Of a stretch of 64,000 nt of DNA, positions 2,819-33,073 are shown piece by piece. Source of the DNA: Hydnum rufescens UP504 (taxonomy: Eukaryota; Basidiomycota; Agaricomycetes; Cantharellales; Hydnaceae). The DNA lies in contig MU129080.1 of assembly GCA_014904985.1 (NCBI GenBank), positions 16,752 through 80,751 of the forward strand, given 5' to 3'. The translations under genes were made by a program, and so were the position numbers. The notes below the pieces were generated by a model that was not told the DNA's origin, did no database searches, and was given only the letters and a program-made list of their open reading frames with translations. The first letter of the stretch is position 1. Each line of letters begins with the position of its first letter.

Positions 2819-3219
2819 ATCCTCCATCAATCACATTCTCAAGATTAAACTGGGGTCTGGGCATTGCTCCATTTGTGTCTCTGTCTCCAATTTGGGCACA
2901 GTGTACTTTCCACTCCCTTAGTCTGGGATGCCTTTGAATAGACACAGGTGGTTACCAAACTGTATTGTTTGTTAAGGCACCAAATGAATCATGTGATTTT
3001 TGCCCATGAGGTCTTAGGGGGATGGAGGTGACTGGGATGAAGACCAACTGTCCCAAACATCACCCTACAGTAAAGAGAATCTCAAAAAATTTCAGAGCCA
3101 GTTCTTTATTGCCATTTTTTCATCTCCAAGGCCCAATTGGGTTACCCATAAGAATCAGGTGATTTATTTGGACCTTAACTGCCATATTTGGATGGCAATA
3201 GTCAATATAATTGGGTACT
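2819..3219. other. Repeat-derived flank, no gene seen
   Basis: A CG-poor sequence with no open frame I can support. It is probably part of the transposon relic that continues at 3220. Confidence 0.4.
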
Positions 3220-4310
3220 ATGTTATGTGTATACAAAGGGGACCCAGCCTCTATATATAGAGGCTGGTGATCCTGCCTACCACTCCCTGTCTGTGAGGTC
3301 TGGAGTGCACTCTTGATTGCTACTGGTATCTGCCAGGCCTGGTTGGAGGCTGCCCAATGGATGGAAATGCTCCCTGATTGCATGCATGATATCTGTCAGC
3401 ATGCACATGTGAATCTCCTTGTGATTCCCTGGGGGAGCATGGCTCCTCAGTCCTGCTGTGGTATATTGGGCTTGGTGCACTTCCTTGGGGAACAGTGGTT
3501 ATCAGATGGCAAGATGGCACAGCAGGTGATGATTTTCAAGAAGATGTGGCAAAATATTTGAAGATGGCCTCACAAAGGGTCCAGGAGACTCATTTTGTGC
3601 ACACAGTAATGGAACACTATCATGACTCAAAAGAGGTCCCTTATGATGCTACCACAGTATCACATTATATCTATTCTCTTGGAAAACACATCCATGAGGA
3701 TACAGTCACCCATGAGGAATGGACTTTGTGAATGGGAATCATTTTGTTGCCTTTGCAATTGACATGTCCCAGCAACACCTGCTCATTGGAGACTCATTCA
3801 ATGACCCATTGACAATTAAGAAGGTTGTTGCTGCATTTACTTGGTGGCTTGGCCAGCACTCTTGATTGTCACAGGCTTGTCTGGCTTTTCTGTTGGCAGC
3901 TTCCCCATTGCAATGCAGACAGATGGGCCATCTTGTGGCATTCTCACTCACAATGCCATTGAGGTTTACCTTGCTCCAGAACAATTCTCATTAATCAATT
4001 CAGATGTCTCAATGAAGCATGCTCAAGTTAATAAGTTTATTTCTATTTCAGACAAACATCTGCAAGCAGTGAGTGTTGTGTCAAAATTCAATGAATCTTC
4101 TCTCACCTCACAGCCACAAACAGACTGGAAATGTTATTCACAAGTCTATGCCATTGTCCATTCCCTTGTGTCCCATTCCCATGCATCCCACTCCCACTCC
4201 TGCACACCCAATTCCTGTTCATCACATTCCTGTGCACCCTGTGCACCCTGTTCTCATGCATCCCATTCCAATCATATGGGCCAAGTGCCAGGAATCTCAT
4301 GCTGACAAGA
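3220..4310 (+). pseudogene. C48/Ulp1-like cysteine protease of a transposon, degenerate
   Basis: Pieces of one protein can be read across frames on the plus strand. Near 3470-3560 is GEQWLSDGKM, resembling the substrate-binding segment of Ulp1-like proteases. Near 3730-3800 is NGNHFVAFAIDM, with the histidine, followed by LIGDSFNDP, with the aspartate. Near 3890-3960 is IAMQTDGPSCGIL, with the glutamine and the catalytic cysteine. This order H-D-Q-C is the C48 catalytic set. Such proteases are common partners of DDE transposases in basidiomycete elements. Frame changes near 3730 and 3870 make it non-functional as read, unless unseen introns restore it. Confidence 0.6.
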
Positions 4311-4371
4311 GCTTACTGGATCCTAAGCACCATGCCATGCAATCCTCCCTTTCTGAATATCTCCCATAATT

Positions 4372-4656
4372 ATGTGTGAGGAATATATGGCACAGAATGC
4401 CAGAAGCCTCCAAGACATGGCTGAGGATCATCAAAATTGTAAAACTATCACTACTCTTCTGGAGGAACACCAGAAGATCAAATTGCAGGAGGATTCCAAG
4501 ATGTGGAAGCATGCAAGCTGTGCACAGAAGAAGGGAAAGGAGCAAATTGCTGGTCTCTGTGATGACAATCTGAGGGTAATTCACATCAAGAGGGATCCCA
4601 CTACTTTGGTATGTGAAATCACTGTTGAATATACCACTCACATACTTGAATATTGA
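4372..4656 (+). CDS. Unrecognised charged ORF downstream of the protease
   Basis: An open frame of 94 codons, rich in Glu, Lys and Gln in its first half (possible coiled coil). It lies in the same orientation as, and just after, the protease relic, so it is probably the tail of the same transposon protein. No family recognised. Confidence 0.3.
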   Translation: MCEEYMAQNARSLQDMAEDHQNCKTITTLLEEHQKIKLQEDSKMWKHASCAQKKGKEQIAGLCDDNLRVIHIKRDPTTLVCEITVEYTTHILEY

Positions 4657-5059
4657 GTACATCACCCCTTAGGATGATGGATCCTCCCCCCTGATGTCAA
4701 CCATTGAAGAGAATGTGTTGAAGTCACCTGCAGTCAACATTGCTCAAATTTCAAGACCTTGGTGAGAAATCATGGCAGGACATACCAAACTCAGCATAGA
4801 TCCTTCAAAAGGCAGTCATCCAGTGAGCCAGAAATTTTCAAAAGCAGTACAATGGACAAATTGGCAGCATCCCATGCTCTGGAGTGCAATTACCTATGCC
4901 ACAGCTCATGTCCCATTTTGACTTGGTGTTTCTGAGATCTTAAAGATATTTTGGCCTGATGTACACAAGACTTGACTTGTCTGTGATGAGTCACTGGATT
5001 GATTGGGAAAATCAGAGCCAGCAGGTGCTCTAATTTGGAAAGATAATGTTCTTGCAAGG

Positions 5060-6170
5060 GCACAGAGAGGCATTCTCAGGTCTGGAAGATCCACAAACAA
5101 ATCTATCTTGGTAAGGTTTCCCCATGTGTGCCTTGGTCATAGTTGATGTCTAATTCTCTAGCAATAAGAGTCAATTTCCTCAGATTGAGGAAGTGGTAAA
5201 GACCCAGATCAAAATGTGCAGAAGTCTGGGGGACCACTTGATATTGCCACAGCATATGGCTTTATGGTTGCTGCAATACAGCATTTTGCACCACACTTGT
5301 TTGATCTCAAGACCAAGAAGGGGGACCAGCAATGCTTTCAATGTTGGGAAGCATTCATTTGTCACTTTTTGTCAAAGAAACTTGTTCTTTCATACTGCCA
5401 TGTGACTTGGCTGCTCAGAAAACCCCTGAAGATGCCCCAAGGCAAGGACTTGACATATTCCTCCAACCATGCAACTTAATCATGGAGCAACTAGACAAGT
5501 TTCTTATTGATTATGAAGTATGCTGTGAAGAAGCATTATATACAGATGAGGAGAAGTGTAGGCATTTGAACCTGGGTTAAACCTGAACCTAACCTGAACC
5601 TAACCTAAGATAGGTTTTCTTCAGGTTAGGTTCAGGTTTTGCCAATTGAGGAGATTCAGGTTTTGGTTAAGTTCAGGTTTTTCTCAAATGGGCAAAACCT
5701 GACCTGAACCTGACTTTGGCAACCATAGTCAGTACACTGTGGTCAAGAGTTGTGTGCATGGGTACAGCAGGAATCCTCATGGATCACCCTAATCTATGTA
5801 CAGCAGGTTGTATGGGCATTTTCCAGCCCTGGGATGTGGGCATCCAGCATATTTTAAAGCTGATAATTAAGCATGCTGCTCATGCTGACATTGTAAATGA
5901 AATACTTGCACTTCTTGACAATGGCACTCTTCCAAAGAATATCTTGCTAGACAAGTCTCTTCCATCACTGAGAGACCATTCACTGCATTGGATTGTCAAG
6001 GGATTCAAGAAATTATTGGGGATCCAGATCTCATACAAAAGGTATGTCATTTTTCATGTCTATGCCAAGCAACTCTGACACAAGCCATCAGGCCTTTGCA
6101 TTATGTGTCATCAACAGTGGCTCATACTCAATCAATCACTCCTACTCATCACTCACATCTATGGAAGCTC
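5060..6170 (+). pseudogene. DDE (pogo-like) transposase relic, left copy
   Basis: Segments match basidiomycete DDE-endonuclease transposases. At about 5215-5440 is an N-terminal DNA-binding segment (SGGPLDIATAYGFMVAAIQH, then FQCWEAFICHFLSKK). At about 5800-6030 is the C-terminal core (GIFQPWDVGIQHILK, then a segment ending WIVKGFKKLLG). The central catalytic part, where the first two aspartates should lie, is missing. In its place is the short repeat at 5572-5725. A missing G near 6018 shifts the frame relative to the second copy at 9436. Confidence 0.65.
5572..5725. repeat. AACCTGAACCT-type palindromic insertion
   Basis: About 150 bp built from AACCTGAACCTAACCTG and its complement, arranged as an imperfect inverted repeat around 5640. 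It interrupts the transposase relic at the point where the catalytic domain should be. It is not the TTAGGG telomere repeat. Confidence 0.6.
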
Positions 6171-6173
6171 AAT

Positions 6174-6300
6174 GTTGGAGGGATAAATCCCTATTACATA
6201 CAATTCACATCACCACCCAACACCTCCTCAAATGAATCCATTATATCCAATTCAATCTCATCCATTTCCATCATTCCTTTCATTATTACAGGCTGGTCAG
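6174..6300 (+). repeat. 5' end of an LTR (TGTTGGAGGG family)
   Basis: About 125 bp starting TGTTGGAGGGATAAATCCC. It matches the 5' end of the LTR copy at 47923-49268 read on the minus strand. Only this start is present, so it is a truncated insertion in the transposase relic. The second duplicated copy lies at about 9738-9850. Confidence 0.65.
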
Positions 6301-6305
6301 TCACA

Positions 6306-6366
6306 TGGGGGACCTAATTTAGGCACCATTTTGGGGGCAGAAAATGGTACCTAATAGGTCCCCCAG
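6306..6366. repeat. Long hairpin GGGGGACCTA...TAGGTCCCCC
   Basis: Arms GGGGGACCTA and TAGGTCCCCC, with inner arms ACCATTTT and AAAATGGT, around GGGGGCAG. A copy is at 9871-9931 and a diverged relative near 22230-22270. It probably marks a transposon end. Confidence 0.6.
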
Positions 6367-6584
6367 ACAGTACAGCTGATATATGGCCATTACAGTTCAT
6401 TTTGGCCAATCATGGCTGTGCTAGATTATATATTTATTATCATTATTACTACTATTATTATATACATATTATCCCCCCCCTGGGGTCTGCCACCACAGGG
6501 GCAGTTCATGCAGGTCACAGGTTTGCAGGTGGTGGGCCAGGTTAATAAATAGCACATTAGTAGAAGAAAAGTACCTTAAATCCA

Positions 6585-7150
6585 CCACACACCCACTGCA
6601 GCAGGTGTATGGCTCATTTGCCCAGTGGGGGCCTGGGCTCCATTTGGGCAGACTTTCAAGGGGTGTTTGTGGTTTCATTCATACAGGTGTTTGCAGTTTT
6701 CATTTGTGTGGTTGTGCATGGTTTTGTTCCCAATTTTCATTCCTGGCATGTTGTTCAGTGGGTTGTGGTCTGGGGTTCCACCAGGTTCCACTGGCAGGTT
6801 GGTGGATTCAGGCTCAGTGGTGTAAGTTTCAGGTGTTAGCTAAAATTAAAAGAATACATACATTATATGGCCACACACCACTGTGGTGGGGTGTGTGGCC
6901 CTATTCTCCTGCTCTTCTGGTCCATGGTTTCATATGGGTGGGTTTTGTTGGTGGTGTACTTGTTGGCTTGGGGGTCCATGGGTTCACACATTGAGGTTGG
7001 ACAGATTGATCTAGAATAGAAATAAAACATTAGTTATATCAAAACTTCATGCAAAAAGAGCAGCAACTGCTGCTCTTTTTGTGCATTTGTAGCTATTGAA
7101 AAAAAACACATAGCTAGTATTGCCACACACCTGCTGCAGTGGGTGTGTGG
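6585..7150 (-). repeat. Hairpin/intron-like module array 1, leftward part
   Basis: Read on the minus strand. Hairpin type 1 (arm CCACACACCYRCTG followed by its complement) occurs at 7123-7150, 6871-6898 and 6585-6612; type 2 (arm GCAAAAAGAGCAGCA) at 7052-7081. From the first type 1 hairpin the minus strand passes a damaged donor (CTATGT), the type 2 hairpin, a branch-like AACTAAT (7029-7035) and an acceptor-like CTATTCTAG ending at 7011. A T-poor stretch follows down to the next hairpin, then a GTATGT (6856-6861). No open frame links the exon-like parts convincingly, so I do not call a gene. Confidence 0.6.
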
Positions 7151-8480
7151 TACTATTTAAGGTGAGTTTCCCACTGCCCTGATAGGTACTGTGGCACAAA
7201 AGAGCAGCAAAAGCTGCTCTTTTTGTGCAGGATTTAAATTTTTTACTAACACTTTTATTTACTGCTCTAGGGAAAGCTGTCCCACCCACAAATGACACCC
7301 CACACATGACCACATGAACAGAAACATGTGAACAAACAAATAGCAACAACACACACAGGAAGCCACCAAGAAGAGCTGGAAAACAGAGGCCACACACCTG
7401 CTGTGGTGGGTGTGTGGCCATATAAGGTATGTATCATTTTTAATAGTTACAAACATGCAAAAAGAGCTGCTGCTGCTGCTCTTTTGGTGTGACATTTGAT
7501 TTCAACTAACATACTCACTATTCTAGGTCAATATATCCCATCCCAATGCAAGAAGTTATGCAGCCATGAGCCAAACCCATGGGCCCACCAGAATCCCATG
7601 AAACCCACACCCCATTACATGCAAACATGCCAACAAATGAGGGAGCCACACACCTGCTGCAGCAGGTGTGTAGCAATATAAGATATATAATTTTTTGTTT
7701 AAATAGCTACAGTCATGCAAAAAGAGCAGCAGTCACTGCTCTTTTTGCATGACTCTTGAATTTTAACTAATGCCTTGGTTTTTCTAGGCCAAGTTATCCC
7801 AGCCCAATACATGAACCCATGCAGTTGCAAGCCCAAACCCACTTACCCACCAGTACACCAAAGAAACCCCCCTGAATGATGAGGCCCAATCAGCCAGGAC
7901 CCCAACAGCAACACATGAACTGTGAACACACCAAATGAAACCCAACCAAACAGAGCCAGCCAAACAAAACCATGCCAAACACCATGACACCATACCCAAT
8001 GAAACAATGCCAAACAAAAAGGCAAGAGGTGGCCATGTGCCACCCAAGTGCCCATGTGAACCACACACCTGCTGTGGCAGGTGTGTGGTTCTATATAAGG
8101 TAAGTGCACCCAGCAACAATGCCCTGTGCATGACCACATGAACAAACCAACAAATGATGATGGCAACAGGCACATACAGCCATGGAGAAGACAAGCAGGA
8201 AAATGGAGAGCCACACACCCACTGCAGTGGGTGTGTGGCCACATAATGTATGTATTTTTTTAATAGCTACAAATGCACAAAAAGAGCAGCAGTTGCTGCT
8301 CTTTTTGCATGAATTTTAATTTTGACTAACATATTCTCTATTCTAGGTCAACCCCAACACATCATGAACCCAAATCCACTGACCCCCCAGGATCTCAGTG
8401 AAACCCTGTGCATGTCAGGGCAACACTGCCATTGAGGCCACAAACAGAGAGAGAGAGAGAGGAGGTGAATAACCACACAC
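7123..8480 (+). repeat. Hairpin/intron-like module array 1, rightward part
   Basis: Type 1 hairpins at 7123-7150, 7390-7417, 7646-7673, 8061-8088 and 8211-8238, with a decayed one near 8473. Type 2 hairpins at 7195-7227, 7457-7488, 7715-7750 and 8274-8308. Intron-like stretches: 7162-7270 (GTGAGT to CTCTAG, branch CTAAC at 7246), 7427-7526 (GTATGT to TTCTAG), one ending at 7787 whose donor is mutated to AT, and one ending at 8346 with GTATGT at 8248. A GTAAGT at 8100 has no type 2 hairpin after it. The donor lies 9-11 nt after the type 1 hairpin. Exon-like stretches are poor in T (about 9 of 118 bases at 7271-7388). Confidence 0.7.
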
Positions 8481-9120
8481 CTATTGCAGTGGAAATCCTA
8501 AGAGATCAAAACTGAGGATCATCCAACTGTGAAGGGCTATAAATACTATTCCTTCTACACAGCACCAGCCTTCCAGAGCCTTCTGCCAACTTCTGTAACC
8601 TTCCAGATCCTTCTTAAAGCGCAGCCTCTGCAGCCTTCCTGACTAACCCTTACTAAGCTTACCCAGCTGCTTATCAACCATGATCCATCTACTGACTAAC
8701 CCTTACTCATCCTGCACACATCCCTCCACATGTCCCATGCCCATACTCCAGATATGCCATGCTCATAGTTGATATCTGAAGGTTGCCCATGCATGGGTAT
8801 GCCAAGGTGTTGAAGGACTGTAGTGATGGCAAGGGGTTGGGGATTGGAATGGGTGATGACAATGGTGGAGGAGGAGGGGGAGTCTAGATTGGTAGCTGTA
8901 GGGACTCACATGGGGGGGTGAGGTGACAAGGGATGCTGACATAGCCACAGTGCTGCCAATGATCAATTACCCAACCCACAGCCTGCTGACCTATGCCCAA
9001 TAATATGAGGGCAATGATGATAATCAAAATGCCAATGATCACAGCAAGGATGACTGAGCTGGAAAGAGGAGGTGAGGCTGTATGAGGATACAGGTGCCAT
9101 GTGTGAAGATTGATGTAGGA
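8481..9120. other. Non-coding tail of unit 1 with a conserved TATAAATA
   Basis: No gene recognised. A TATAAATA motif at 8538-8545, followed by a pyrimidine-rich stretch, is conserved at 13578-13585 in unit 2. It could be a core promoter, but nothing shows transcription or its direction. The rest is repeated at about 13540-14168. Confidence 0.45.
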
Positions 9121-9435
9121 TATAGTTAATCACCTATGTAGTAAATATATTCAAATTTGGCCAATTCTGATGTGTAAAAGTGGCCCAATCCCCTTCCAAT
9201 AGCTATATGTGCCTATATTTGAGCTCTGACTTGTTATCATTGTCATTATCACATTTTGTGGACAAATATTTATATATAGTATCTATTACACATGTGCATT
9301 GGCTATTAATGTGTATTGTGCTTGTAGCACCAGCACTTGGGCACTTCTTGAGTACTGGCAATTGCCAGTGTTGAATGTGCAAACTACACAGCCACACCCA
9401 GCACCTGCCAGAATGCCAGAAAGGTGAGACATGAC
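9121..9435 (+). repeat. Single arm of the central palindrome
   Basis: This stretch matches 11800-12115, the right half of the palindrome in unit 2, up to the GGTGAG-ACATGAC junction. It then joins directly to the DDE transposase fragment of unit 2. It marks the boundary between the two duplicated units. Confidence 0.8.
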
Positions 9436-9737
9436 TCATGCTGACATTGTAAATGAAATACTTGCACTTCTTGACAATGGCACTCTTCCAAAGAATATCT
9501 TGCTAGACAAGTCTCTTCCATCACTGAGAGACCATTCACTGCATTGGATTGTCAAGGGATTCAAGAAATTATTGGGGGATCCAGATCTCATACAAAAGGT
9601 ATGTCATTTTTCATGTCTATGCCAAGCAACTCTGACACAAGCCATCAGGCCTTTGAATTATGTGTCATCAACAGTGGCTCATACTCAATCAATCACTCCT
9701 ACTCATCACTCACATCTATGGAAGCCCAATGTCGGAG
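9436..9737 (+). pseudogene. DDE transposase 3' end, right copy, with a 50-nt intron
   Basis: Begins abruptly inside the transposase at HADIVNEILALLDNG and runs in one frame through LLGDPDLIQK. A GTATGT...CATCAG intron (9599-9648, 50 nt) then joins to AFELCVINSGSYSINHSYSS and a frame that continues to the truncated LTR start at about 9738. Splicing restores the usual C-terminal segment of this family, so the fragment looks only recently disabled. It lacks the catalytic core. Confidence 0.65.
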
Positions 9738-10143
9738 GGATAAATCCCTATTACATACAATTCACATCACACCCAACACCTCCTCAAATGAATCCATTAT
9801 ATCCAATTCAATCTCATCCATTTCCCATCATTCCTTTCATTATTACAGGCTGGTCAGTCACATGGGGGACCTAATTTAGGCACCATTTTGGGGGCAGAAA
9901 ATGGTACCTAATAGGTCCCCCAGACAGTACAGCTGATATATGGCCATTACAGTTCATTTTGGCCAATCATGGCTGTGCTAGATTATATATTTATTATCAT
10001 TATTACTACTATTATTATATACATATTATCCCCCCCCCTGGGGTCTGCCACCACAGGGGGCAGTTCATGCAGGTCACAGGTTTGCAGGTGGTGGGCCAGG
10101 TTAATAAATAGCACATTAGTAGAAGAAAAGTACCTTAAATCCA

Positions 10144-11376
10144 CCACACACCCACTGCAGCAGGTGTATGGCTCATTTGCCCCAGTGGGGGGCCTGGGCT
10201 CCATTTGGGCAGACTTTCAAGGGGGTGTTTGTGGTTTTCATTCATACAGGTGTTTGCAGTTTTCATTTGTGTGGTTGTGCATGGTTTTGTTCCCAATTTT
10301 CATTCCTGGCATGTTGTTCAGTGGGTTTGTGGTCTGGGGTTCCACCAGGTTCCACTGGCAGGTTGGTGGATTCAGGCTCAGTGGTGTAAGTTTCAGGTGT
10401 TAGCTAAAATTAAAAGAATACATACATTATATGGCCACACACCCACTGTGGTGGGTGTGTGGCCCTATTCTCCTGCTCTTCTGGTCCATGGTTTCATATG
10501 GGTGGGGTTTTGTTGGTGGTGTACTTGTTGGCTTGGGGGTCCATGGGTTCACACATTGAGGTTGGACAGATTGATCTAGAATAGAAATAAAACATTAGTT
10601 ATATCAAAACTCATGCAAAAAGAGCAGCAACTGCTGCTCTTTTTGTGCATTTGTAGCTATTGAAAAAAACACATAGCTAGTATTGCCACACACCTGCTGC
10701 AGTGGGTGTGTGGCTCCCTACTTTCATCTTGGTGTGTTGTGTGCCCACCTTCATTCATTTATTTTCCTGTTTGGGCATTCCAATTCATGTGATGTAGGGA
10801 CTTTTGGTCATTGGGGGGGGGGATATCCTGGCCTAGAATAGGCAATAAAACATTAGTTAAAATTTTAAAAACAGTGCAAAAAGAGCAGCAAGTGCTGCTC
10901 TTTTTGTGGTGGGTGGGAACATGGACTTAACTTATGGAACCACACACCCACCACAGTGGGTGTGTGGTTCACTTGGCCACTCAGGCAGTGTGTTACCACC
11001 CCTTGCATTTTTGTTTGGGCTCAGTTGGCTGGGTGTTGTTTCATTGAGTTTGGTGTTCTTGGGTTTTGTGTCACATGGTGTTGCATTGTGTGGTGTCACA
11101 TCATTGGGTTTTGCATCATTGGGTCACATTGTTGGGTCATGTTGTTTCATTTGGTGTGTTTTTGGTTTGCATATTACCATATGGGGCCTGACTGGTTGGG
11201 TCTCATCCTTTGGCACCTGTGACCAGGCTATGACCTAGAATAATAAAGGTTGTTAGTAAAAAAGTTCAAAGCAGCACAAAAAGAGCAGCTTTTGCTGCTC
11301 TTTTTGCACTGTTGTATCTATGATGAAAAAAAAGAAGACTCGCCTTATGACCACACCTGCAGTTGTGGGTGTGTGG
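10144..11376 (-). repeat. Hairpin/intron-like module array 2, leftward part
   Basis: Minus-strand modules. Type 1 hairpins at 11351-11376, 10940-10967, 10686-10713, 10435-10462 and 10144-10171; type 2 at 11274-11308, 10876-10909 and 10613-10649. Acceptor-like TTCTAG ends lie at CTAG 11235-11238, 10833-10836 and 10576-10579 on the plus strand, each preceded on the minus strand by CTAAC or CTAAT. The donor after the first hairpin reads AAG-GCGAGT (possible GC donor), the next is mutated to TTAAGT and the third to CTATGT. The exon-like segments are T-poor on the minus strand, so composition follows module orientation. Confidence 0.7.
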
Positions 11377-11440
11377 TTGTTGTGTGCTTGCCTTTTCAGG
11401 CAGTTGCCTGATGTGGTTACAAAGATGGGAGGAGATGTAG

Positions 11441-12057
11441 ATTCAATGCTGGCAATTGCCAGTACTCAAGAAGCACCCAAGTGCTGGCACTACAAGCACA
11501 ATACACATTAATAGCAGGCATGCACATGCATAATAGATACTATATAATAAATATTTGTCCACAAAAATGCAATAATGATGATGATAACAAGTCAGAGCTC
11601 AATAAGGCATGATATAGCTAATTGGAAGGGGATTGGGCCACTTCTACACATCAGAATTGGCCCAAATTTGAATATATTTACTACATAGGTGATTAACTAT
11701 ATCACATGTTCTGGGCATTTTTCAATTTTTCACACCTTCAATTCCCTATTTAGGGAATTGAAGGTGTGAAAAATTGAAAAATGCCCAGAACATGTGATAT
11801 AGTTAATCACCTATGTAGTAAATATATTCAAATTTGGGCCAATTCTGATGTGTAGAAGTGGCCCAATCCCCTTCCAATAGCTATATTGTGCCTTATTGAG
11901 CTCTGACTTGTTATCATTGTCATTATCACATTTTTGTGGACAAATATTTATTATATAGTATCTATTACACATGTGCATGCCTGCTATTAATGTGTATTGT
12001 GCTTGTAGCACCAGCACTTGGGCACTTCTTGAGTACTGGCAATTGCCAGTGTTGAAT
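11441..12057. repeat. 617-bp near-perfect palindrome
   Basis: Two arms of about 305 bp meet at about 11750 with almost no spacer (AATTCCCTA-TT-TAGGGAATT). The arms differ by a few small changes. It sits between the leftward and rightward hairpin modules and could extrude as a cruciform. One arm alone recurs at 9121-9435. Confidence 0.9.
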
Positions 12058-12116
12058 TGTGCAACTACACAGCCACACCCAGCACCTGCCAGAATGCCAG
12101 AAAGGTGAGCACATGA

Positions 12117-13480
12117 CCACACACCCACTGCAGTGGGTGTGGTACTATTTAAGGTGAGTTTCCCACTGCCCTGATAGGTACTGTGGCACAAAAAGAGCAG
12201 CTTTTGCTGCTCTTTTTGTGCAGGATTTAAATGTTTTACTAACACTTTTATTTACTGCTCTAGGGCAAGCTGCCCCACCCACAAATGACACCCCACACAT
12301 GACCACATGAACAGAAACATGTGAACAAACAAACAGCAACAACACACAGAGGAAGCCACCAAGAAGAGCTGGAAAACAGAGGCCACACACCTGCTGTGGT
12401 GGGTGTGTAGCCATATAAGGTATGTATCATTTTTAATAGTTACAAACATGCAAAAAGAGCTGCTGCTGCTGCTCTTTTGGTGTGACATTTGATTTCAACT
12501 AACATACTCACTATTCTAGGTCAATATATCCCATCCCAATGCAAGAAGTTATGCAGCCATGAGCCAAAACCCATGGGCCCACCAGGACCCCATGAAACCC
12601 CACACCCCATTACATGCAAACATGCCAACAAATGAGGGAGCCACACACCTGCTGCAGCAGGTGTGTAGCAATATAAGATATGTAATTTTTTGTTTAAATA
12701 GCTACAGTCATGCAAAAAGAGCAGCAGTCACTGCTCTTTTTGCACGACTCTTGAATTTTAACTAATGCCTTGGTTTTTCTAGGCCAAGTTATCCCAGCCC
12801 AATACATGAACCCATGCAGTTGCAAGCCCAAACCCACTCACCCACCAGTACACCAAAGAAACCCCCTGAATGATGAGGCCCAATCAGCCAGGACCCCAGC
12901 AGCAACACATGAACTGTGGACACACCAAATGAAACCCAACCAAACAGAGCCAGCCAAACAAAACCATGCCAAACACCATGACACCATACCCAATGAAACA
13001 ATGCCAAACAAAAAGGCAAGAGGTGGCCATGTGAACCACACACCTGCTGTGGCAGGTGTGTGGTTCTATATAAGGTAAGTGCACCCAGCAACAATGCCCT
13101 GTGCATGACCAGATGAACAAACCAACAAATGATGATGGCAACATGCACATACAGCCATGGAGAAGACAAGCAGGAAAATGGAGAGCCACACACCCACTGT
13201 AGTGGGTGTGTGGCCTCATAATGGATGTATTTTTTTGATAGCTACAAATGCACAAAAAGAGCAGCAGTTGCTGCTCTTTTTGCATGAATTTTAATTTTGA
13301 CTAACATATTCTCTATTCTAGGTCAACCCCAACACATCATGAACCCAAATCCACTGACCCCCCAGGATCTCAGTGAAACCCTGTGCATGTCAGGGCAACA
13401 CTGTCATTGAGGCCACAAACAGAGAGAGAGAGTGAGGAGGTGAATTAACCACACACACCTATTGCAGTGGAAATCCTAAG
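12117..13480 (+). repeat. Hairpin/intron-like module array 2, rightward part
   Basis: Type 1 hairpins at 12117-12142, 12383-12410, 12641-12668, 13036-13063 and 13186-13213. Type 2 at 12187-12220, 12449-12481, 12711-12744 and 13250-13283. Intron-like stretches: 12154-12263 (GTGAGT to CTCTAG), 12420-12519 (GTATGT to TTCTAG), one ending at 12782 with its donor mutated to ATATGT, and one ending at 13321 with donor GGATGT. A GTAAGT at 13075 has no type 2 hairpin after it. Order and spacing match array 1. Confidence 0.7.
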
Positions 13481-14305
13481 CATACAGCAACAACCAAACA
13501 GCTATGCACAAGACTTGCACCTATCACAGTGGAAATCCTAAGAGATCAAAACTGAGGATCATCCAACTGTGAAGGGCTATAAATACTATTCCTTCTACAC
13601 AGCCACCAGCCTTCCAGAGCCTTCTGCCAACTTCTGTAACCTTCCAGATCCTTCTAAAGTGCAGCCTCTGCAGCCTTCCTGACTAACCCTTACTAAGCTT
13701 ACCCAGCTGCTTATCAACCATGATCCATCTACTGACTAACCCTTACTCATCCTGCACACATCCCTGCACATGTCCCATACTCAACTTCCAGGTATGCCAT
13801 GCTCATAGTTGATATCTTGAAGGTTGCCCATGCATGGGTATGCCAAAGGTGTTGAAGGACTGTAGTGATGGCAAGGGGTTGGGGATTGGAATGGGTGATG
13901 ACAATGGTGGAGGAGGAGGGGGAGTCTGGATTGGTAGCTGTAGGGACTCACATGGGGGGTGAGGTGACAAGGGATGCTGACATAGCCACAGGTGCTGCCA
14001 ATGATCAATTACCCAACCCACAGCTTGCTGACCTATGCCCAATAATATGAGGGCAATGATGATAATCAAAATGCCAATGATCACAGCAAGGATGATGAGA
14101 ACCCATGACTGAGCTGGAAAGAGGAGGTGAGGGTGTATGAGGATACAGGTGCCATGTGTGAAGATTGATGTAGGACAAAAGTTTGCTGGCTAGCTCTGAG
14201 GGTGGAAGCAGATGTCAGTTCACTCCTGACAGTGCACAAGTACACACAAGCACACATATGAATGAACAACAACACACACATGAAGCCATGGAGGAGAAGA
14301 GGGAG

Positions 14306-14860
14306 CCACAAACCTGCTGCAGTGGGTGTGTGGCAATATCAGGTAAGTATTTCTTAGTAGCAACAAATGCACAAAAAGAGCAGCAGTTGCTGCTCTTTTT
14401 GTGCAATTATTACTCTTCAACTAACTTTTATTTTTTATTCTAGGCTAAGATGTCCACCTAAACCCACAAAACCATGCAGCCATGATGAAACCATGCAGCC
14501 ATGGTGAAACCATGGAACCACACCAAAACCACACAGCCATGAACACAACCACAGCCATGAATGCAATGCACAAGCCCCAAATGACACCCCACAACCATGC
14601 AATGAATGGGACCTGTGCAAAGGGGCAACCAAAGGTCCCCAGCATACCCCCTGAAAATGCATGGACCACCAAATTACCACACACCCACTGTGGCAGGTGT
14701 GTGATCATCTAAGGTGATTCCCCCCCTCCTGTAGATACAACAATGCAAAATGAGCAGCTTTTGCTGCTCTTTTTGCATCACTTTTAACTATTCACTAAAC
14801 TTTTTTTTATTTTAGATCTTGCTCCCCCAAATCCACATGAGCCCTGTATGAAAAATTGAG
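14306..14860 (+). repeat. Hairpin/intron-like module array 3
   Basis: Two further modules on the plus strand. Type 1 hairpin 14306-14333, donor GTAAGT at 14343, type 2 hairpin 14369-14404, branch CTAAC, acceptor ending 14453 (intron-like 111 nt). Then a T-poor exon-like stretch full of CCATG repeats, type 1 hairpin 14677-14703, donor GTGATT at 14714, type 2 hairpin 14743-14778, acceptor ending 14815 (102 nt). Confidence 0.7.
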
Positions 14861-14861
14861 G

Positions 14862-15240
14862 GTGGAAAGTACACAGCTGTGGTACAAATGTAACAAAGTG
14901 GAGTTGACAGGGGAGGGAGTAGAAATAGGGAGAAGAGGAGAAGGGGTAATCACACCACCCTTAGCACTGGCTTCAGGTGGGGGAGCTGCAAACAGGGCTA
15001 AGCACTGGCTTTGCCCTGGACACAGGAGAAAAGGTTGTGAGGGAGAGGAGATCATGATGAAAGGCATAAAGAAGTAGTGACTGGCCAAGTGGCACAGTCA
15101 CTACCTAAGGAGAGGAGGTGGGGTCAGTAAGAGGAAGGGGTGATCCTGCTTACTGCTTTCCCTGCTAGAGTCCAAAGGTGTTGTTCCAGAGCCAGGGAAA
15201 GTCCTAGTAGTTAATGGCGACTAGATAAGCCAGCCAGATA
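14862..15240 (+). repeat. Repeat R, left half, split by the Plavaka insertion
   Basis: Matches, in inverse orientation, about 43190-43500. Its right half is 21387-21547. The two halves become continuous when the Plavaka element is removed, so R was the insertion target. Confidence 0.75.
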
Positions 15241-21547: not shown

Positions 21548-21556
21548 AACAAATGA

Positions 21557-21965
21557 GTACCACACACCTGCTTTGGTGGGTGTGTGGTACTACAAGGTAT
21601 TTAATTTTTTTTTACTAATGTATGCTATTATTTTAGGATCCAAATCAATGCTCCCAAAACAATGACCCACCACAACAGCAACCCACAATTTGTCTGAACA
21701 ACCTGCCCAACAGTGAATCACCAAGCCCAGCCCCTCATACCACACACACCTGCCCTAGCAGGTGTGTGGTGCTACTATGTACTTTTTTTTGATTTCTATG
21801 GGCAGAACCACACCCACTACTGCAGGTGTGGTCCTAAGTACTTTTTTTTAAAATTTCTATGGATGGTACCACACACCCACCCTAGTAGGTGTGTGGTGCT
21901 ACTAAGTACTTTTTTTTTTGAGATTTATGGATGATACCACACCCACCTAGGGAGGGTGTGTTTTT
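21557..21965 (+). repeat. Hairpin module array 4, with a 40-nt intron-like stretch and tandem hairpins
   Basis: Type 1 hairpin 21560-21587, then donor GTATTT at 21597 and acceptor TTTTAG ending 21636. This is only 40 nt and lacks the type 2 hairpin, but keeps ACTAAT. Four more type 1 hairpins follow at 21740-21769, 21807-21832, 21869-21896 and 21937-21960. They form a tandem array of 62-68-bp units, each hairpin followed by GTACTTTTTTT and ATTTCTATGG. Confidence 0.7.
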
Positions 21966-23090
21966 TTAAATTGAATTCTTGAATAAATAAATAAACAAGT
22001 CAATAACAACAAAACATGAGACTGCCCTGCTGACCCAGGGCAGTATATGTATAATATAGCAATAATAAATAAATAATTATAAATGGAACATACTATCCCC
22101 AATAAGCCCATATGGCCCACTGCAAGTCTGAGATTCTCTAAGTCCCAGTTTCAGCCAATTTTTTGGCCACTTTGGCCAATTCTGGGCCAGGAGGTGAAAA
22201 CCATGAAAGACCAAATTTGGCCAGAATAGTGATGGGACCTACTTAGGTACCATTATCTGCCCTCAAAGTGATACTTAATTGGGTAGGCTTAGGTGACTGA
22301 CCAAGGTGGATAGTAGCTAGATCTGTGTTAGGCACCATGTGCCCCATAACTGCTGCAGCATTGTTATAAGACCCCCTATAATTATTAAAGTGAATATCAT
22401 ACCCCTAGCTATTGGACCACACATAAGGGAGATATCAGGCCACATCATTCTGTAAGCTCCAAGCTATGGTAGTTTATAAATACATGATTCTATTCAGACT
22501 CCTTTGCTAGTCTGTCTTCACACATTGAGCCCATTATGACAAGCTTGTTTCAGTGGTACAATGGGGATTGTTAGCAGGTTGTTGGGGAACCTATTTGGGC
22601 AAGTCAGTACAAGTCAGCTGAGTCAGCTCCTAAACAGCTTCTGCCAACTTGATGCCTGCTCAGCTCTGGCCAAAATCCATTCAGCCAGTGGCTTCCAGGC
22701 ACTCACTTGACAGCAACACTAGAAACAAGGGATTGGGTGGTTTAGCTGAGTTACTGGTCATATTTTCCCTTTTGGATGATAAGGTGCTTAAAGGCTTGGT
22801 TAATCTTACTGCAAGTGTTATCTGAAACATAAGCCATACTTGGGGAGATTGGAGGTTCAATTTGCCTTCAGAACAAATAAGTTTGTGAATGAGACTAGTG
22901 TTAGATGAGGTCATTAGGTAAAGTAAATGAGACAATAGGAATTAGCCAGCAGATATGTGTAAAGTTAAAGTTCAATAGAAAGTGAGGTTTGAGAGACACC
23001 CCCAGGGTAAAGCCCAGGGGGATAGGTTTGCTTTTGGTACCAGTAATGCTTATATTATATAACCTTGTAAGTGCTGTATCCTAGTATTGT
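21966..23090. other. CG-poor repeat debris
   Basis: No gene recognised. Contains a diverged relative of the 6306 hairpin (near 22230-22270). Near 22552 is TGGTACAATGGGGATTG, which matches the end of the MITE at 42030. Confidence 0.5.
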
Positions 23091-27899: not shown

Positions 27900-30800
27900 A
27901 AAGAGAAGCTATGGATTGATGGTGTGGAGAGGGAAGATGCGTGTGTCACGGATGTAGCGAAGAGTGAGTGGTACAACCCGTGGGTCTGAGAGGAGGGTGG
28001 ACATGTTGGTAGTGGAGAGGTGGTGATCGATGCAGAGGATATCATGCCTTAGCCAAGTATGTTTGCATGCGAAGCGTGCACAAAACACTAGAAAGTGCTC
28101 AGGGGTTTCTCGAGCCTCACATCGGGGGCACAGTGGGGAGTCCACATGACCGAAGCATTCCAGATAGTCTCATAGTGCCACATGCCTGGTGCGTAGTTGA
28201 GCGATAATACTGCAACCTCCCTGTGGAAGGGAAGCTAGCATGCGGAATGTGGCCTTGCTTGAGAGAGTTCCTCGAATGTGTTGATGGCGTGCTCCTGCCC
28301 ATTGAGGGGGAGTGGGAGGGGGGGGATGGATTTGGTGGCACATTCCCGAGCTGCAGCGAGTGAGGCTGGGAGGGGGGAAAAGAGGATAGGGGAGTGAAAC
28401 ACTGTTGCCAACTTAGCCAGTTCATCAGCTTTTTCATTCCCTGGGATGCCTTCGTGCCCCGGGATCCAGATACGGTGGATTGGGGTCTGGGGGTGGCCAC
28501 GTTTGAACGTTTCACAGAGTGCATGTATCTCGAGAATGAGGGATTGGCCTGCTTGGTTGCAAGTCCACCTGGTACAGGCTGTTATAGCTGCTTGGTTGTC
28601 GAGGAATATGGATACTGAGGTGGTGGAGGCTGGGAGAGATGTCGCGAGGGTGAGGGCTAGCTGTATGCCTATGAGTTCTGCCTTGAAGACCATATGGGTT
28701 GAGGCTGCACCTAGGTGATGGGTTGTGGATTGTTTCTGTTGGGGTCCACTGCTGAAGCACCTATTCCCTTTTCTGTCTTTGAGCCATCACTGTAGATTAA
28801 GGCCTGGGTGTAGGAGAAGGGGATGTTAGTGTGGTTAGCTATTGCCTCATCCTTCGATGGGCTATGTGGCCCTCCAGCTGGGGTTTCCACCAAGGTGGTT
28901 GGGGGAGAGGGAGAATGGTCTCTAGTGTTGAGGGGGTTGGGGTTGAGGTTGGGGAGTGGAATATGCACTGGAGTGCCGATCGTGGGTTTTGACGTTGCAC
29001 GTATGGGCTCGGCGCGCCAGGGGGCCAACTGGATTTGAGTTGGGTGTTGCCAACATGCGTAGTGCTGAGAGGGTAACCTTGCGGTCCAGGCAGGTGCGAG
29101 TTGGAATGAGGTCAGAGTCAAATTCGAGTGCGGGTCCTGGTGAGGTTCGGAATACCCCTAGCATTATGCGCTGGGCCAAGCATTGGACTGAGTCGAGCAT
29201 GTGGACTGCCAGGGTGTTGGTGGCAAATGGGTGCCAGGCTACTGCACCATAATCAGTGTGACTGAAAATGCATGTAATGACCAGGCACCTGAATTGGATT
29301 AGTGGGATCCCCCATGTCGTGCATGCAGGGGAACCTAGAGCCATGAGGGCCGCGCAGCCTCTAGAGGCTGCCTTTTCCCCTTGAAGCTTCCAGCGAAGTT
29401 CTGAATCAAAGATTATACCTAGGTACATTACATTGGATGAGGGTGGAATCTGTGAGTTGCCGAATGAGATGGGAGTATCGTCGATAAGGTGGTGGTTGTG
29501 CGTGAAGATGATGAACTGGGTTTTTACCACATCGAGGGTTGAGGCGTGGTGAGTGCCCCATCGTAGGGAGAGGATGGCTGCCTCCTCTAGGGTCCAGCGG
29601 GCCTCTCGTGCTGTGGAGCCTGAGGCTAGGAAAATGATATCGTCTGCCCAGCCTTGGGCACTTAGGGAAATTACAATATTGGGAATGTCCAGGAGGTCAG
29701 CATTATAGAACAGATAGAGGATACCTGAAAGTGGGGACCCTTGTGGAATTCCAACATTGCAGGCCAAGGACTCTGATGTGTAGTATCCACATACTATGGT
29801 AGAGGTGCACTCCGACATGAAAGATGAGATGAGATTAGTGATCTCTAAGGGGATCTTACGCTTTCGCATGTTGTGGATCAGGCGTGGTTTTGAGACTGTT
29901 GGGAATGCATTCTTGACATCAATGAGGAGAGCTCCTACGACTTTCTTGCAGCGCCATTCATGTTTTATGTATTCTTCAATCGCGACTACTCCGTCTTCTG
30001 TTGAATGCCCTGGGCGGCAGCCTAAGTGGGTATTGGGTAGGAGCTGGAATTTGTCGGCCAAGTAGGTGATGCGCTGGGCTATAATGCCTTCGAAAAGCTT
30101 TCCCATAGTGCAAAGGAGGGCGATGGGGCGGTATGCATTTGGTTTGGAGTAGTCAGGTTTGCCCGGTTTTCACAGGATTAGGGTTGTTGCCTTACACCAA
30201 GGGGATGGGTAGTAGCCAATGCAAATACATGCCTTGAAGATATCATAGAGGGGCTGGCGGATCGTGTCCCAGGTACATCTTAGGACTCGTACTGGGATTC
30301 CATCAATCCCCAGGGCTTTGTCTGGGGCCATGCACTTCATTTGCTTGTCAAGTTTGGTGATTAGGAGTGGGTGGAACTGGTGGGAGGCAGGGTATGCATG
30401 GCCTGGGTGGATATCTGAGAGGTCTGGCTCCTGGGGAGGTGAGAAGAAAGTATCGCGGAAGAGATTTGCTTGGTCAGTAGGAGCTGAGGCAAGGGAGCCA
30501 TTTGGGCATGCCAGTGGGGGTATGAAGCAGGGGGCTTGTTCCTTCGTGGCATAGCGGGATGCTGTAAATAAAGTGGAGTCATCTAGGGAGGCTAAGAAGT
30601 CACGCCAGTGTTGGCGTTTGTGGCACCGGACTTCCTGCTGGAAGGTCCTCTGGGCCGCCTTCCAGGCATTGCGTGCTTCATCTGTTTGGAGGTGTTGAGC
30701 CTGGTGGCGGGTATGACTGGTTTGTTTCTGGAGTGCTGTCAGCTCCGTGGACCACCAGCGCTTTGAGTAGGGGGAGGGTGCAGCAACTGGTACGTGAGTT

Positions 30801-31808
30801 TCGATTCCCCTTTTGACAGTGTCAGTGAGCTTGGTGATTGCAAGGTTGATGGAGGTACAGTCAGGGCGGGGTGCAACCCATGTGGTGAGATTCTTGCCTA
30901 GGAGGGTCGAAAGCTTAGCCCAATTGGCTTTCTTCCAGAGACAATGTTGGGTGGTGGGCAGAGGGAGGGTATGGAGGGAAAGGCAGTGGATTAGAGGGTA
31001 GTGGTCAGATCCATGGTTGAAGTCGGGGTCATGAGAGGTGGTACTGTACATGAGATATAGGAATCTCTTGCTGATGGGGAAGCAAATATGAGATCAATTA
31101 CCATAGTATGGTCTTGGGCACTATGGAAGGTGATGATGCCTGGTTGGGATTGAAGGCGCGCCCCAAGGTGTGACATCATCAGGATTAGGTCATCTGCTTC
31201 TGGGTCCCCGATTCCAACCCTTCCTGGGGCATCCCAAAGTGGGGAGTGCAGGTTGAAATCGCCCAGTACTACGAAGGGGGAATCTGGTGGGAGGAAGAGG
31301 GGGTCAGCCAGCAGGTCATAGAGGGGGCGCAGAGAGGAGAAGGTGCCTGGGGGATTGTAGACATTAATAAAGGTGAAGGGTAAAGGGGTTGAGGGAAAGC
31401 AAAGGAAACTGATGAAATATTAATAGAATTGGTGCAAGGGATATGGTAAAGAGAAGAGGGGATGCGTGAATTGACATAAATGACAGAGCGGGGGGAAGCT
31501 AGGGGGTCCAGGACTGGGGCTGTTGGGAGGATTAGGCGCCATTTGGGATGCTGTAGGATGTGGCGGACACCATTGAGGGAGTATGTATAGGGTTCCTGTA
31601 TGAACAAAATGTCGAATTGAGCTGTATGGGGGCTATTAAGTAAGGAGTGGTGTACAGCGGAGGCATGGTGGGCATTGTATTGAAAGGCAGAGAATTCAGG
31701 AAGTGTGATAGGAGGGTCATCAGGAAGGGGGGGGCTGCTGTGAGGTGGGGACTGTGTGGTTTCACTATTCATGAATTGGGTATAGGAGGGCATCACCGTT
31801 GGAGTCAT
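27900..31808 (-). pseudogene. LINE ORF2: endonuclease, reverse transcriptase, RNase H
   Basis: Target-primed reverse transcription protein. Endonuclease: FDILFIQEPYTYS (catalytic Glu) near 31600, VVLGDFNLHSPLWD near 31240, IDLIFAS near 31100. Reverse transcriptase: RKPGKPDYSKPNAYRPIALL with its first Arg codon now TGA (about 30167), GIPQGSPLSGILYLF near 29730, catalytic GWADDIIFLA near 29650. RNase H: IYSDGSKTEKG (28790), KAELIGIQLAL (28680), LDNQAAI (28610), NEKADELAKLA (28420). C-terminal CPRCEARETPEHFLVFC (28090-28140) is the CCHC motif typical of Tad1-like LINEs. Frame changes near 31350, 31100, 29010 and 28700 make it non-functional, although 28922-31051 is a single frame apart from the TGA. 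Confidence 0.85.
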
Positions 31809-33073
31809 TGAGCCGTGCTAGGGCTTGGATATGTACCGGGCATTCCTTGCTGGATGCCCGGTGGTTACCTTTGCACAATATGCATGCAAGAGCTACATGG
31901 TTGCATTCCCGGTGGTCACAACAGGTGGGGGTAGCTGTACAGTGGCATTCTGTGGTCAAGTGGGAGCCGGCACAGCGGCCGCAGGCTTTCTGCGCTGAAC
32001 ACCGAGCTGCGGTATGTCCAAAGCACTGGCAGTTGTGACATTGGAGGATAGAGTGGTGCGACTTCTCCGTGGCTAAGAGAGTTCCATTGTAGGAGATGGA
32101 GTTAATAATCGCTTTATTGGCTTTGCAGGGATTGTGCAGATGGAGGATGAGGGATGAGTATTTCTTGGTGGTGTCCAAGTTGGGGCGGGCCCACATGGCT
32201 CGTGCCAAAAAGTCTAGTATACCTGGATTACTTTGTCGAAGGTCCTCGAGGTCATCTTTAGAAGAGGGGTCAAAAGAAGTGGGGATATGGTGTGCAATGA
32301 TAGCATATATTGGGTGGCGGAGAGTGAGCTCCTTGCTAAGAAGTGGTACCCAGCTGGTGTTAAAGTGGAGGTGGTCAGCATCTGAAACCGAGTTCATAGT
32401 GATAATTATGTCTTTGGAGGCATGGCGAGAGACTGTGCGGACTTTTAGGGGTTTACCATCTGCATCGACGATGGCTGCAGTTTCAATGGCAGTGTCTGTC
32501 AACCATTTGAGCTCTGGGAAGAGAGTGGTGGGTATACTGGATTGGCTGGGTGCGACTGGATCAGAGTGAGATCCAGTTCAGGGTTGCGGCTTTTGGATGT
32601 GGGTAATGGAGGGGCTGTCTTTTGACAGCCAGTAGGAGCAGAGGTTTTGCCTGAGGAGAGAGCCTGGCTGTAGGACAGAGGCAGTGGGGGAGGTGTGTTA
32701 GAAGAGATAGCAGACATGTCTGCTTCTAGTTTGTCAAAATGGGTGTGGATATCTTCTGAGAGGGTGGCAAGTTGGGTAGCAATCCGATTACCTGCTTCAA
32801 CGTTGCGACCAATCTGGTGAGCCAGTTCTAGAATACCCTTGAAGTCCTCTGCCAGTATAGAGAAGGACTTGGGTTCCTTTCCTGGGGTGCATTGTGACGT
32901 CGTTCTTTTGGCCGAAATCTGTTCAAGAATATCAACAAGTTTGGATGCACAGGCACCTTGGTCCTTATAGTTGGGGAGAATAGAGTGGAGTCTAGCTCTC
33001 CCCAGGGTCTGGGGGACATAGGTGGATGAGAAACATCAGCGGGTGCGTGTAGGGAACTATCACGCTGGGACAT
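31765..33073 (-). pseudogene. LINE ORF1, zinc-knuckle nucleic-acid chaperone
   Basis: ORF1 protein binds the element's RNA. The N-terminal part is read from ATG 33073 (SQRDSSLHAPADVSHPPMSP) and 32717 (Pro/Ser-rich). The C-terminal part below 32580 has an RRM-like region (WVPLLSKELTLRHPIYAII) and three CCHC-type knuckles: CHNCQCFGHTAARC, CGRCAGSHLTTEC and CILCKGNHRASSKEC. Frameshifts lie between 32828 and 32717 and again between 32580 and 32530, where an in-frame TGA (32578) is bypassed. It overlaps or nearly touches ORF2 at 31808. Confidence 0.75.

Follow-up and report, generated by a model that had tools for sequence, protein, structure and literature searches.

Arrays of hairpin-bearing, intron-like modules in Hydnum rufescens as the body of a putative KDZ-type non-autonomous transposon with predicted divergent spliced RNAs

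What are the repeated hairpins, framed by splice-like signals, that fill positions 5881-14860 of the 64,000-nt stretch of Hydnum rufescens UP504 DNA analysed here (the window)? A sequence-only reading had claimed about 20 near-perfect palindromes of a first type (T1), and a loose pattern indeed finds 18 T1 in this interval, together with 14 hairpins of a second type (T2), and one more, degenerate T1 lies near 11350. A motif-free scan of the same interval (stem of at least 12, loop of at most 8) detects 25 hairpins, a few of which are neither T1 nor T2, whereas none of 10 Markov shuffles contains more than one. Six introns with all strict signals (donor, T2, branch-like motif and acceptor) are predicted on the + strand. 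The five junctions proposed earlier agree with these predictions, except for the last acceptor, which ends at 14443 and not at 14453. The claim that the sequence is T-poor on the sense strand in both orientations also holds: in hand-picked segments of the window, T represents 11.5% of + sense exons and 12.7% of − sense exons, vs. 37.6% of predicted introns and 27.9% of the whole window, exons and introns thus differing threefold. The observation of hairpin-bearing, intron-like arrays is confirmed, and it extends further than first noted.

Each module is composed of a T-poor exon ending in T1, a donor located mostly 7-11 nt after T1, and a T-rich intron containing T2, a branch-like motif and an acceptor. 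Of 256 T1-T2 pairs, 158 have a strict donor 4-14 nt downstream of T1, vs. 4 when the mirrored side is scanned, and a branch-like motif plus acceptor follows T2 in 192, vs. 2 in the mirrored control and 18 after shuffling. The predicted intron length is 92-121 nt in the 112 pairs with both a strict donor and a branch plus acceptor. Genome-wide, the T1-donor pattern is found 1003 + 1023 times, the reversed control giving 0 + 1. The strict donor is missing in 98 of 256 T1-T2 pairs, and AT replaces the expected GT in at least 27 of 195 T1 sites, in families of related copies. In the arms tested, the donor is better conserved than its surroundings in the two left ones, which is not the case for the two right ones. 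The exon-intron layout, as well as the long open frames arising from T-poor exons, could evoke a decayed protein-coding gene. Yet no open frame of the CpG-rich copies exceeds the shuffle range, in four of four arms, and a 239-aa frame running across an array has no protein match at E <= 10, so that a coding origin is scarcely credible. The fixed splice-signal geometry and the T-rich introns, with no coding signal, rather lend support to one proposal of the sequence-only reading, a multi-intron non-coding RNA, and we consider it likely, with good confidence, that the arms are spliced non-coding RNAs.

The element of the window begins at an outer left end (9846..9911, + strand) with CAGGCTGGTCAGTCA as its terminal motif, accompanied by a subterminal hairpin (TTAGGCACC..); the stretch before it is presumably pogo-like. 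The left arm, which reads outward, occupies 10435..11377 on the − strand, with T1 hairpins at about 11350-11377, 10940-10967, 10686-10713 and 10435-10462, and T2 hairpins at 11277-11306, 10877-10906 and 10616-10645, each followed by a branch-like motif and an acceptor. Between the two arms lies a central inverted repeat (11441..12057; gapped self-match of 94.8%), within which 11621-11748 and 11751-11878 are perfect arms, and which could be a bidirectional promoter. The right arm, on the + strand, starts with a T1 (12117..12142) and a predicted intron (12154..12263; GTGAGT...CTAAC...CTCTAG, T2 at 12189-12218), followed by the T1 of the second exon (12383..12410) and another predicted intron (12420..12519; GTATGT...CTAAC...TTCTAG, T2 at 12451-12480). 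Further along are a module with ATATGT at the expected donor (12641..12782; T1, T2 at 12713-12742, acceptor), a T1 that has a GTAAGT donor after it but lacks a T2 intron downstream (13036..13063), a module with an altered donor (13186..13321; T1, T2 at 13253-13282, acceptor), a T1 at 14306-14333 with its intron at 14343-14443 (14306..14443 as a whole; GTAAGT...CTAAC...TTCTAG, T2 at 14372-14401), and a last module with GTGATT at the expected donor (14677..14815; T1, T2 at 14746-14775, TTTTAG ending at 14815). No right end of the element was found, and a different repeat matches 14893-15240.

Self-matches within the window also reveal a rearranged partial copy, in tandem (5879..9435, + strand), in which 5879-7150 resembles 9435-10713 (98.6%), 7123-8502 resembles 12117-13480 (96.0%), 8478-9120 resembles 13518-14175 (95.3%) and 9119-9435 resembles 11796-12117 (95.7%). 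It contains predicted introns at 7162..7270 (T2 at 7196-7225), 7427..7526 (T2 at 7458-7487) and 8248..8346 (T2 at 8278-8307), all on the + strand, the last of which had been missed by the sequence-only reading. A further copy on the − strand (21549..22149), outside the interval first noted, is an outer left-arm fragment with three T1 and no T2. The divergent layout around the central inverted repeat, the element ends and the genome-wide copy number were likewise absent from that reading.

The arrays of the window are part of a family of mobile elements, whose hairpins number in the thousands across the 63-Mb genome. Intact copies (L015 and L050) are 5.3-5.5 kb long and are bounded by short inverted termini, CAGCCTGGTCAGCCA / CAACTCAGTCAGCCA. 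In L015, the two termini are accompanied by an 8-bp target duplication, and a related site without the element is found at two loci. Among eight end pairs flanking arrays, an exact 8-bp duplication is present in four (L015, L020, L050 and C193, the latter from two loci), and in four of the five pairs that combine the two main end types. The four pairs with no duplication correspond to a nested insert plus another centre (L049), two left ends (L051) or other end types (L024 and L025). At first look, the two ends had 236 and 264 candidates, respectively, of which 40 per end were scored. In this family, two arms of modules run outward from a central inverted-repeat region; among 64 neighbour pairs from the first 100 genome-wide T1-donor sites, 43 are oriented the same way, 18 outward and 3 inward. 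The ends, duplications and related empty sites indicate that the arrays are almost certainly the body of a mobile element.

The great number of introns, very alike in length and content, would fit introner-like units, proposed in the sequence-only reading, with each insertion making one new intron. This reading fails because the hairpins are grouped in arrays that form part of a larger mobile unit: the target duplications, where found, enclose the whole element of about 5 kb with its ends, and 272 of 275 T2 have another module within 600 nt, in 24 stretches that we picked from T2 and end matches and that are not a random sample. Adjacent modules of L015 moreover look like local tandem duplicates, and an introner origin is hardly tenable.

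Which transposase could move such an element? Its ends match the 3' ends of KDZ (Kyakuja-Dileera-Zisupton) transposons of the same genome, and it is therefore read as a non-autonomous KDZ element. With a 15-base end motif (100 of its 599 places, and 150 of 154 KDZ matches, being used), 14 KDZ-end pairs are found within 6 kb inside the 100 listed end motifs, 12 of which read toward the end, and 6 pairs on the outer side. The KDZ-to-end distances recur (1516, 1527, 1527, 1527; 1606, 1613; 2102, 2110). None of the 150 listed KDZ matches lies inside L015 or L050. The 8-bp duplications described above are of the length reported for Zisupton and for a Dileera element (PMC12730594). The Kyakuja subgroup, described with 7-bp duplications and CA..TG ends without inverted repeats (PMC12730594), has traits that count against the KDZ link. 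hAT, a candidate because of the 8-bp duplication, was rejected as mobiliser since none of 90 hAT matches lies within 6 kb inside the 100 end motifs, and 5 lie outside. L049 was also rejected as an autonomous copy, because its DDE gene (a weak Pfam match) is enclosed by a separate pair of inverted ends (ACATAAGTCATCACT, identified by visual inspection). Taken as a whole, these data make mobilisation in trans by KDZ transposases probable.

Do the hairpins act as DNA or as RNA? Both are DNA palindromes in transposon arms, the ends of which resemble KDZ ends, and they could be transposase binding sites or palindromic repeats, the splice-like motifs being incidental. Their loops are nevertheless strand-specific: GNRA is found in 73 of 254 T2 loops on the sense strand and 0 on the reverse complement, and UNCG in 48 of 195 T1 loops vs. 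10. This contrast is weaker after lineage collapse, the loosest clustering leaving GNRA in 2 of 10 T2 clusters vs. 0, and that of T1 drops to 112 vs. 53 of 195 when CpG-decayed forms are allowed. The donor and acceptor motifs on the sense side, and the threefold T difference between exons and introns, also oppose the DNA-level reading, which is very improbable. The stems resist substitution, with 0.010-0.033 non-CpG substitutions per site in T1 stems vs. 0.065-0.157 in exons, and 0.001-0.021 in T2 stems vs. 0.084-0.172 in introns (in four arms). The T1 stem sequence is nearly fixed across copies and its loop variable; gene conversion among near-identical hairpins could be a partial source of stem conservation.

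The T1 covariation first put forward (CCTGCTG with CAGCAGG, CCCACTG with CAGTGGG) did not stand as stated and is explained mostly by CpG decay, CCTGC and CCCAC being two ways in which CCCGC decays. CpG is lost in both arms in 66 of 190 T1, of which 37 match and 29 do not, vs. 32.9 matches expected under independence, 17 of the 29 non-matching ones being still able to pair as G-U. Compensatory changes at non-CpG positions are present, mainly in T2; in T1, compensated variants at pair 3 represent 12 of 136 distinct ones. The strand-specific loops, substitution-resistant stems and T2 covariation together argue that the hairpins are very likely under selection as RNA. Unstructured linkers were rejected as a selected property: linkers of three arms pair at 0.444, 0.412 and 0.488, vs. 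0.440, 0.374 and 0.486 once shuffled, and 0.547, 0.544 and 0.570 for random four-base linkers. As real and shuffled linkers pair alike, linker openness reflects composition only.

Such hairpins might be small-RNA precursors, a source of small RNAs being also among the proposals of the sequence-only reading. T2 would be mirtron-like and T1 would give dsRNA pieces, directed against host or transposon transcripts; in 11 introns, the long T2 stem is indeed the core of folds of -31.2 to -40.2 kcal/mol. Usual Dicer substrates are, however, longer than the stems of T1 (12-bp core) and T2 (13-19 bp), and small RNAs would need neither stable tetraloops nor splice-site spacing. Rfam gives no match in the window and, on L050, 22 weak matches at E <= 1, none of which reaches the family gathering cut-off and 12 of which fall on the central palindrome. 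A small-RNA role is thus quite improbable. The T1 and T2 patterns are found in no stretch of viral contigs; that of T2 is found in 20 stretches of prokaryote contigs, with a single site each, which look like intrinsic terminators.

The best explanation is that of a KDZ-type non-autonomous transposon carrying two divergent, multi-intron non-coding RNA genes, which we consider fairly probable, this judgement covering the anatomy and the RNA-gene reading and excluding the T1 step. Sequence statistics support mobility, divergent layout, splice-signal geometry and selection on sense-strand hairpins; the promoter, transcription, splicing and KDZ mobilisation are what we infer. The central promoter would start two divergent RNAs running outward, to which each module would contribute one T-poor exon, ended by T1, and one T-rich intron, whose inner T2 would, by folding, reduce its approximately 105 nt to the span of a usual short intron of fungi.

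The role of T1 might then depend on its position, from about -39 to -8 of predicted junctions, a range partly set by the donor search window (4-18 nt after T1). The deposition site of exon junction complexes, located 20-24 nt upstream of junctions (PMC4509934), is one that T1 overlies, and the one component checked in the host, Mago nashi, is present. T1 could cover this site and keep the complexes off; the spliced untranslated RNA would thereby escape junction-dependent decay, and the element would stay open and transcribed. This leading mechanism is unproven and quite tentative. With the same element and spliced RNA anatomy, T1 could alternatively be a docking site, the string of near-identical hairpins titrating or assembling a host RNA-binding protein as a decoy or scaffold, and splicing only maturing the RNA. 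The nearly fixed T1 stem with its variable loop, the several T1 predicted per transcript and the T1 stem pairing of 0.976-1.000 in three folded models would fit docking, which leaves unexplained the clustering of donors 7-11 nt after T1 and the compensated variants at pair 3, and seems rather doubtful.

Non-autonomous DNA transposons are usually regarded as inert products of deletion. The present family, which is very abundant, shows signs that RNA structure and the geometry of splice sites are under selection across many modules, which raises the question of how a transposon benefits from a long RNA that is spliced many times but not translated. With less than even confidence, we propose that the family represents a new class of selfish element. 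The cargo of such a transposon would be an RNA built by splicing, and a module that can be amplified in tandem would place a stable hairpin at a fixed spot upstream of every junction, the RNA escaping or redirecting exon-junction surveillance so that the element stays expressed. The family offers a natural, highly replicated test of the effect of hairpins near splice sites on fungal splicing, exon-junction loading and RNA surveillance, and calls for caution in gene prediction, since spurious genes may be annotated in such arrays.

A literature search, mostly at the level of titles and abstract openings, found no described equivalent of the element; several known systems are nevertheless related to it. 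Foldback elements and MITEs are non-autonomous, with an inverted-repeat architecture and a high copy number. The present family shares these features, L051 being a foldback with two left ends, but it differs by its conserved sense-strand RNA hairpins and splice signals. With the KDZ transposons of fungi (PMC12730594), it has in common 8-bp duplications and the end motif of the KDZ-carrying elements of this genome, whereas its body is made of divergent hairpin-intron arrays, in which no transposase was found, nor any TET/JBP gene in searches that were not TET/JBP-specific. Introners and introner-like elements, some families of which have target duplications and terminal inverted repeats, also provide many similar introns (PMC9860276), but here one mobile unit bears many introns plus its own exons. 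Finally, the oskar SOLE, a 28-nt RNA stem-loop that spans a junction and acts with the exon junction complex in an mRNA (PMC4509934), is linked, like T1, to an exon junction and this complex, whereas T1 lies wholly upstream, over the site of the complex, in a predicted non-coding transcript.

The palindromes described by the sequence-only reading are real, as a loose pattern recovers in 5881-14860 18 type 1 hairpins (T1, at the exon end) and 14 type 2 hairpins (T2, inside the predicted intron), and a motif-free scan of this interval finds 25 hairpins, compared with 0-1 per sequence in 10 Markov shuffles. In the whole genome (63.2 Mb in 539 contigs, where the window is G000:C172:16752-80751), the T2 pattern has 2209 and 2213 matches with up to two mismatches, which are the counts on the two strands of a near-palindromic motif, and its reversed control has 0; the T1 pattern has 4806 matches per strand with up to one mismatch, and its control 0. 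Twenty single T2-like hairpins from bacterial contigs (L052-L071) look like intrinsic terminators.

The unit carrying the arrays is a transposon. In many of the 20 genomic stretches of 7.1-9.5 kb that we picked around T2 matches, the modules (T-poor exon ending in T1, donor, T-rich intron with T2, branch-like motif and acceptor) form two arms directed away from each other. When neighbours within 3 kb were drawn from the first 100 of 2,026 genomic T1-donor sites, a list not selected by us, 43 of the 64 pairs had the same direction, 18 pointed outward and 3 inward. In the stretch L015, the left-arm modules lie on the minus strand (5705 to 3270) and the right-arm ones on the plus strand (6456 to 8165), and an inverted repeat occupies the centre (around 6022-6150). 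The whole element, whose ends read CAACTCAGTCAGCCA and CAGCCTGGTCAGCCA, starts at 2866 or 2867 and stops at 8403. A copy of CCCAAATC flanks it on either side, and related sequence in L019 and L024 continues across its insertion site without the element. Three or four adjacent left-arm modules (L015:4613-5483) are near-identical by eye, with a period of ~257 nt, which suggests that the arrays grow through local duplication.

Candidates for the two ends numbered 236 and 264 at first look, and 40 of each were scored. A script run over all stretches and requiring at least three T2 between ends found seven end pairs, with an exact 8-bp duplication at those of L015, L020 and L050 and none at those of L024, L025, L049 and L051; an eighth pair, divided between L030 and L043, also has the duplication. 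Among the pairs that combine the two main end types, 4/5 have it. L024 and L025 have end types other than the main ones, L049 has a nested element and a different centre, and L051 has two left ends, within a 2.9-kb foldback (2826-5678) that does not match the centre of the element. The element nested in L049 (~3517-6610) carries, between inverted ends (ACATAAGTCATCACT), a DDE_3-like gene with a weak Pfam match, under the cut-off (E 0.0045); the genome contains 77 matches to one of the element's open frames.

The window copy starts at 9846 with the left end CAGGCTGGTCAGTCA, of a different type from that of L015, after a stretch that we take to be pogo-like and of which a 58-aa piece had no Pfam match. 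Its left-arm modules (10435-11377, minus strand), centre (11441-12057) and right-arm modules (12117-14815, plus strand) follow. Its right end was not found between 4001 and 18000 with up to four mismatches, and 14893-15240 matches a different repeat. The segment 5879-9435 is a partial, rearranged tandem copy, whose outer left arm is fused to a right arm inside one T1 hairpin; as this junction (7123-7150) falls within a hairpin common to opposite arms, T1 hairpins may promote recombination. A perfect 128-nt inverted repeat lies at the centre (11621-11878), and the central palindrome of L050 gives sub-threshold Rfam matches, many of them to microRNA families. CpG observed/expected is 0.00-0.12 in 4001-28000 and 44001-56000 vs 0.43-0.73 in 28001-44000, and near 1.0 in CpG-rich copies outside the window (L050, L015). 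A separate, perfect 24-nt palindrome, CCAGCCTCTATATATAGAGGCTGG, is found at 3244-3267.

Splice-like signals are arranged asymmetrically around the hairpins. All stretches together gave 256 T1-T2 pairs, of which 158 have a strict donor 4-14 nt past T1 (mirrored side 4, shuffles 4) and 192 a branch motif and acceptor after T2 (mirrored side 2, shuffles 18). In the 112 pairs with both signals, the donor lies 9 (46 pairs), 11 (40) or 7 nt (21) from T1, with 5 others, and the predicted intron is 92-121 nt long. T content is 12.7% in exon flanks and 37.2% in introns. At least 27 of 195 T1 sites, within families of related copies, carry AT instead of the GT of a donor (ATAAGT, ATAAGC or ATGAGT at L015:7262-7267, 7618-7623 and related copies), and these could be either dead or non-canonical donors; at further T1 sites the motifs are altered in other ways, and part of the module set does not look intact.

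The data, which are sequence comparisons, support selection acting on the RNA hairpins that a mobile element carries at its splice sites. With T2 oriented by its acceptor and T1 by a downstream T2 with acceptor, loops not being used, GNRA occurs on the sense strand in 73/254 T2 loops (reverse complement 0) and UNCG in 48/195 T1 loops (reverse complement 10; 112 vs 53 with CpG-decayed forms). As many of these hairpins are related, the counts were redone on clusters, giving for GNRA 30/95 vs 0 at 85% identity, 3/18 vs 0 at 75% and 2/10 vs 0 at the loosest setting, and for T1 clusters with at least one UNCG member 10/17 vs 3/17, or 12 vs 4 of 26 at a stricter setting. Non-CpG substitutions per site, counted in four arms by comparing a reference arm with other copies (14-37 alignments), are 4.6 to 6.5 times lower in T1 stems than in exons (0.010-0.033 vs 0.065-0.157) and about 8 to 84 times lower in T2 stems than in introns (0.001-0.021 vs 0.084-0.172). 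They are 0.126-0.505 in T1 loops, 0.032-0.362 in T2 loops, 0.021-0.076 at the branch, 0.008-0.081 at the acceptor and 0.075-0.195 at the donor. Relative to its surroundings, the donor changes more slowly in both left arms but in neither right arm. In T2 (106 distinct), compensated pairs at non-CpG positions number 25 at pair 6, 16 at pair 2 and 7 at pair 4. The Watson-Crick fraction is 0.937 for T2 (maximum 0.886 in 500 shuffles) and 0.891 for T1 (shuffle maximum 0.879). The example of T1 covariation put forward by the sequence-only reading turned out to be CpG decay: among 66 cases of CpG loss in both arms, 37 are matched and 29 mismatched, for 32.9 expected matches.

In four arms of CpG-rich copies, where the script left some introns in, the longest open frames (183, 134, 121 and 130 aa) are close to shuffle means (157, 124, 120 and 131) and all under shuffle maxima. 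Rfam gave no match over the cut-off in the window or L050. An AATAAA-rich stretch precedes the right end of L015, L049 and L050, and is also present at the 15 inspected of the 31 ends that have an exact T2 close by; it is less clear at the left end.

The proposed mobiliser in trans is a Kyakuja-Dileera-Zisupton (KDZ) transposon, whose domain has 154 genomic matches. When the first 100 of 599 end-motif places were paired with 150 of these, 14 pairs within 6 kb lay on the inner side (12 reading toward the end) vs 6 on the outer side, among the matches listed, with recurring distances (1516, 1527, 1527, 1527; 1606, 1613; 2102, 2110). For hAT, rejected as mobiliser, 90 matches gave 0 inside and 5 outside over the same number of places (100 of 599). 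PMC12730594 gives 8-bp duplications for Zisupton and a Dileera element and 7-bp ones for Kyakuja. No listed T1-donor site lies within 10 kb of any of the 7 listed KDZ matches between C1 and C6:270442, and the 31 ends close to an exact T2 include 0/4 of the KDZ-linked ends at 1516-1527 nt. From these samples, typical KDZ elements thus do not seem to contain the arrays.

What the hairpins could do is suggested by folding and position. T1 stems are paired at 0.976-1.000 in three folded models, and 11 introns fold around T2 at -31.2 to -40.2 kcal/mol, by which T2 would make the intron effectively shorter. With the donor search confined to 4-18 nt after T1, T1 lies at -39 to -12, -37 to -10 or -35 to -8 relative to the predicted junction (13 cases, 15 junctions). 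eIF4A3 requires single-stranded RNA, and the host Mago nashi was found as three exon-sized matches. According to PMC4509934, the exon junction complex (EJC) is loaded onto RNA 20-24 nt 5' of junctions. We therefore propose that T1 may bar the EJC from the junctions of a predicted non-coding transcript. In the literature searched, mainly titles and abstract openings, no described equivalent of a mobile element with RNA hairpins at its splice sites was found. T1 could alternatively be a plain protein-binding hairpin, which would explain the clustered T1-donor distance less well; we propose that an EJC block, placed over the known deposition site, better accounts for this distance.
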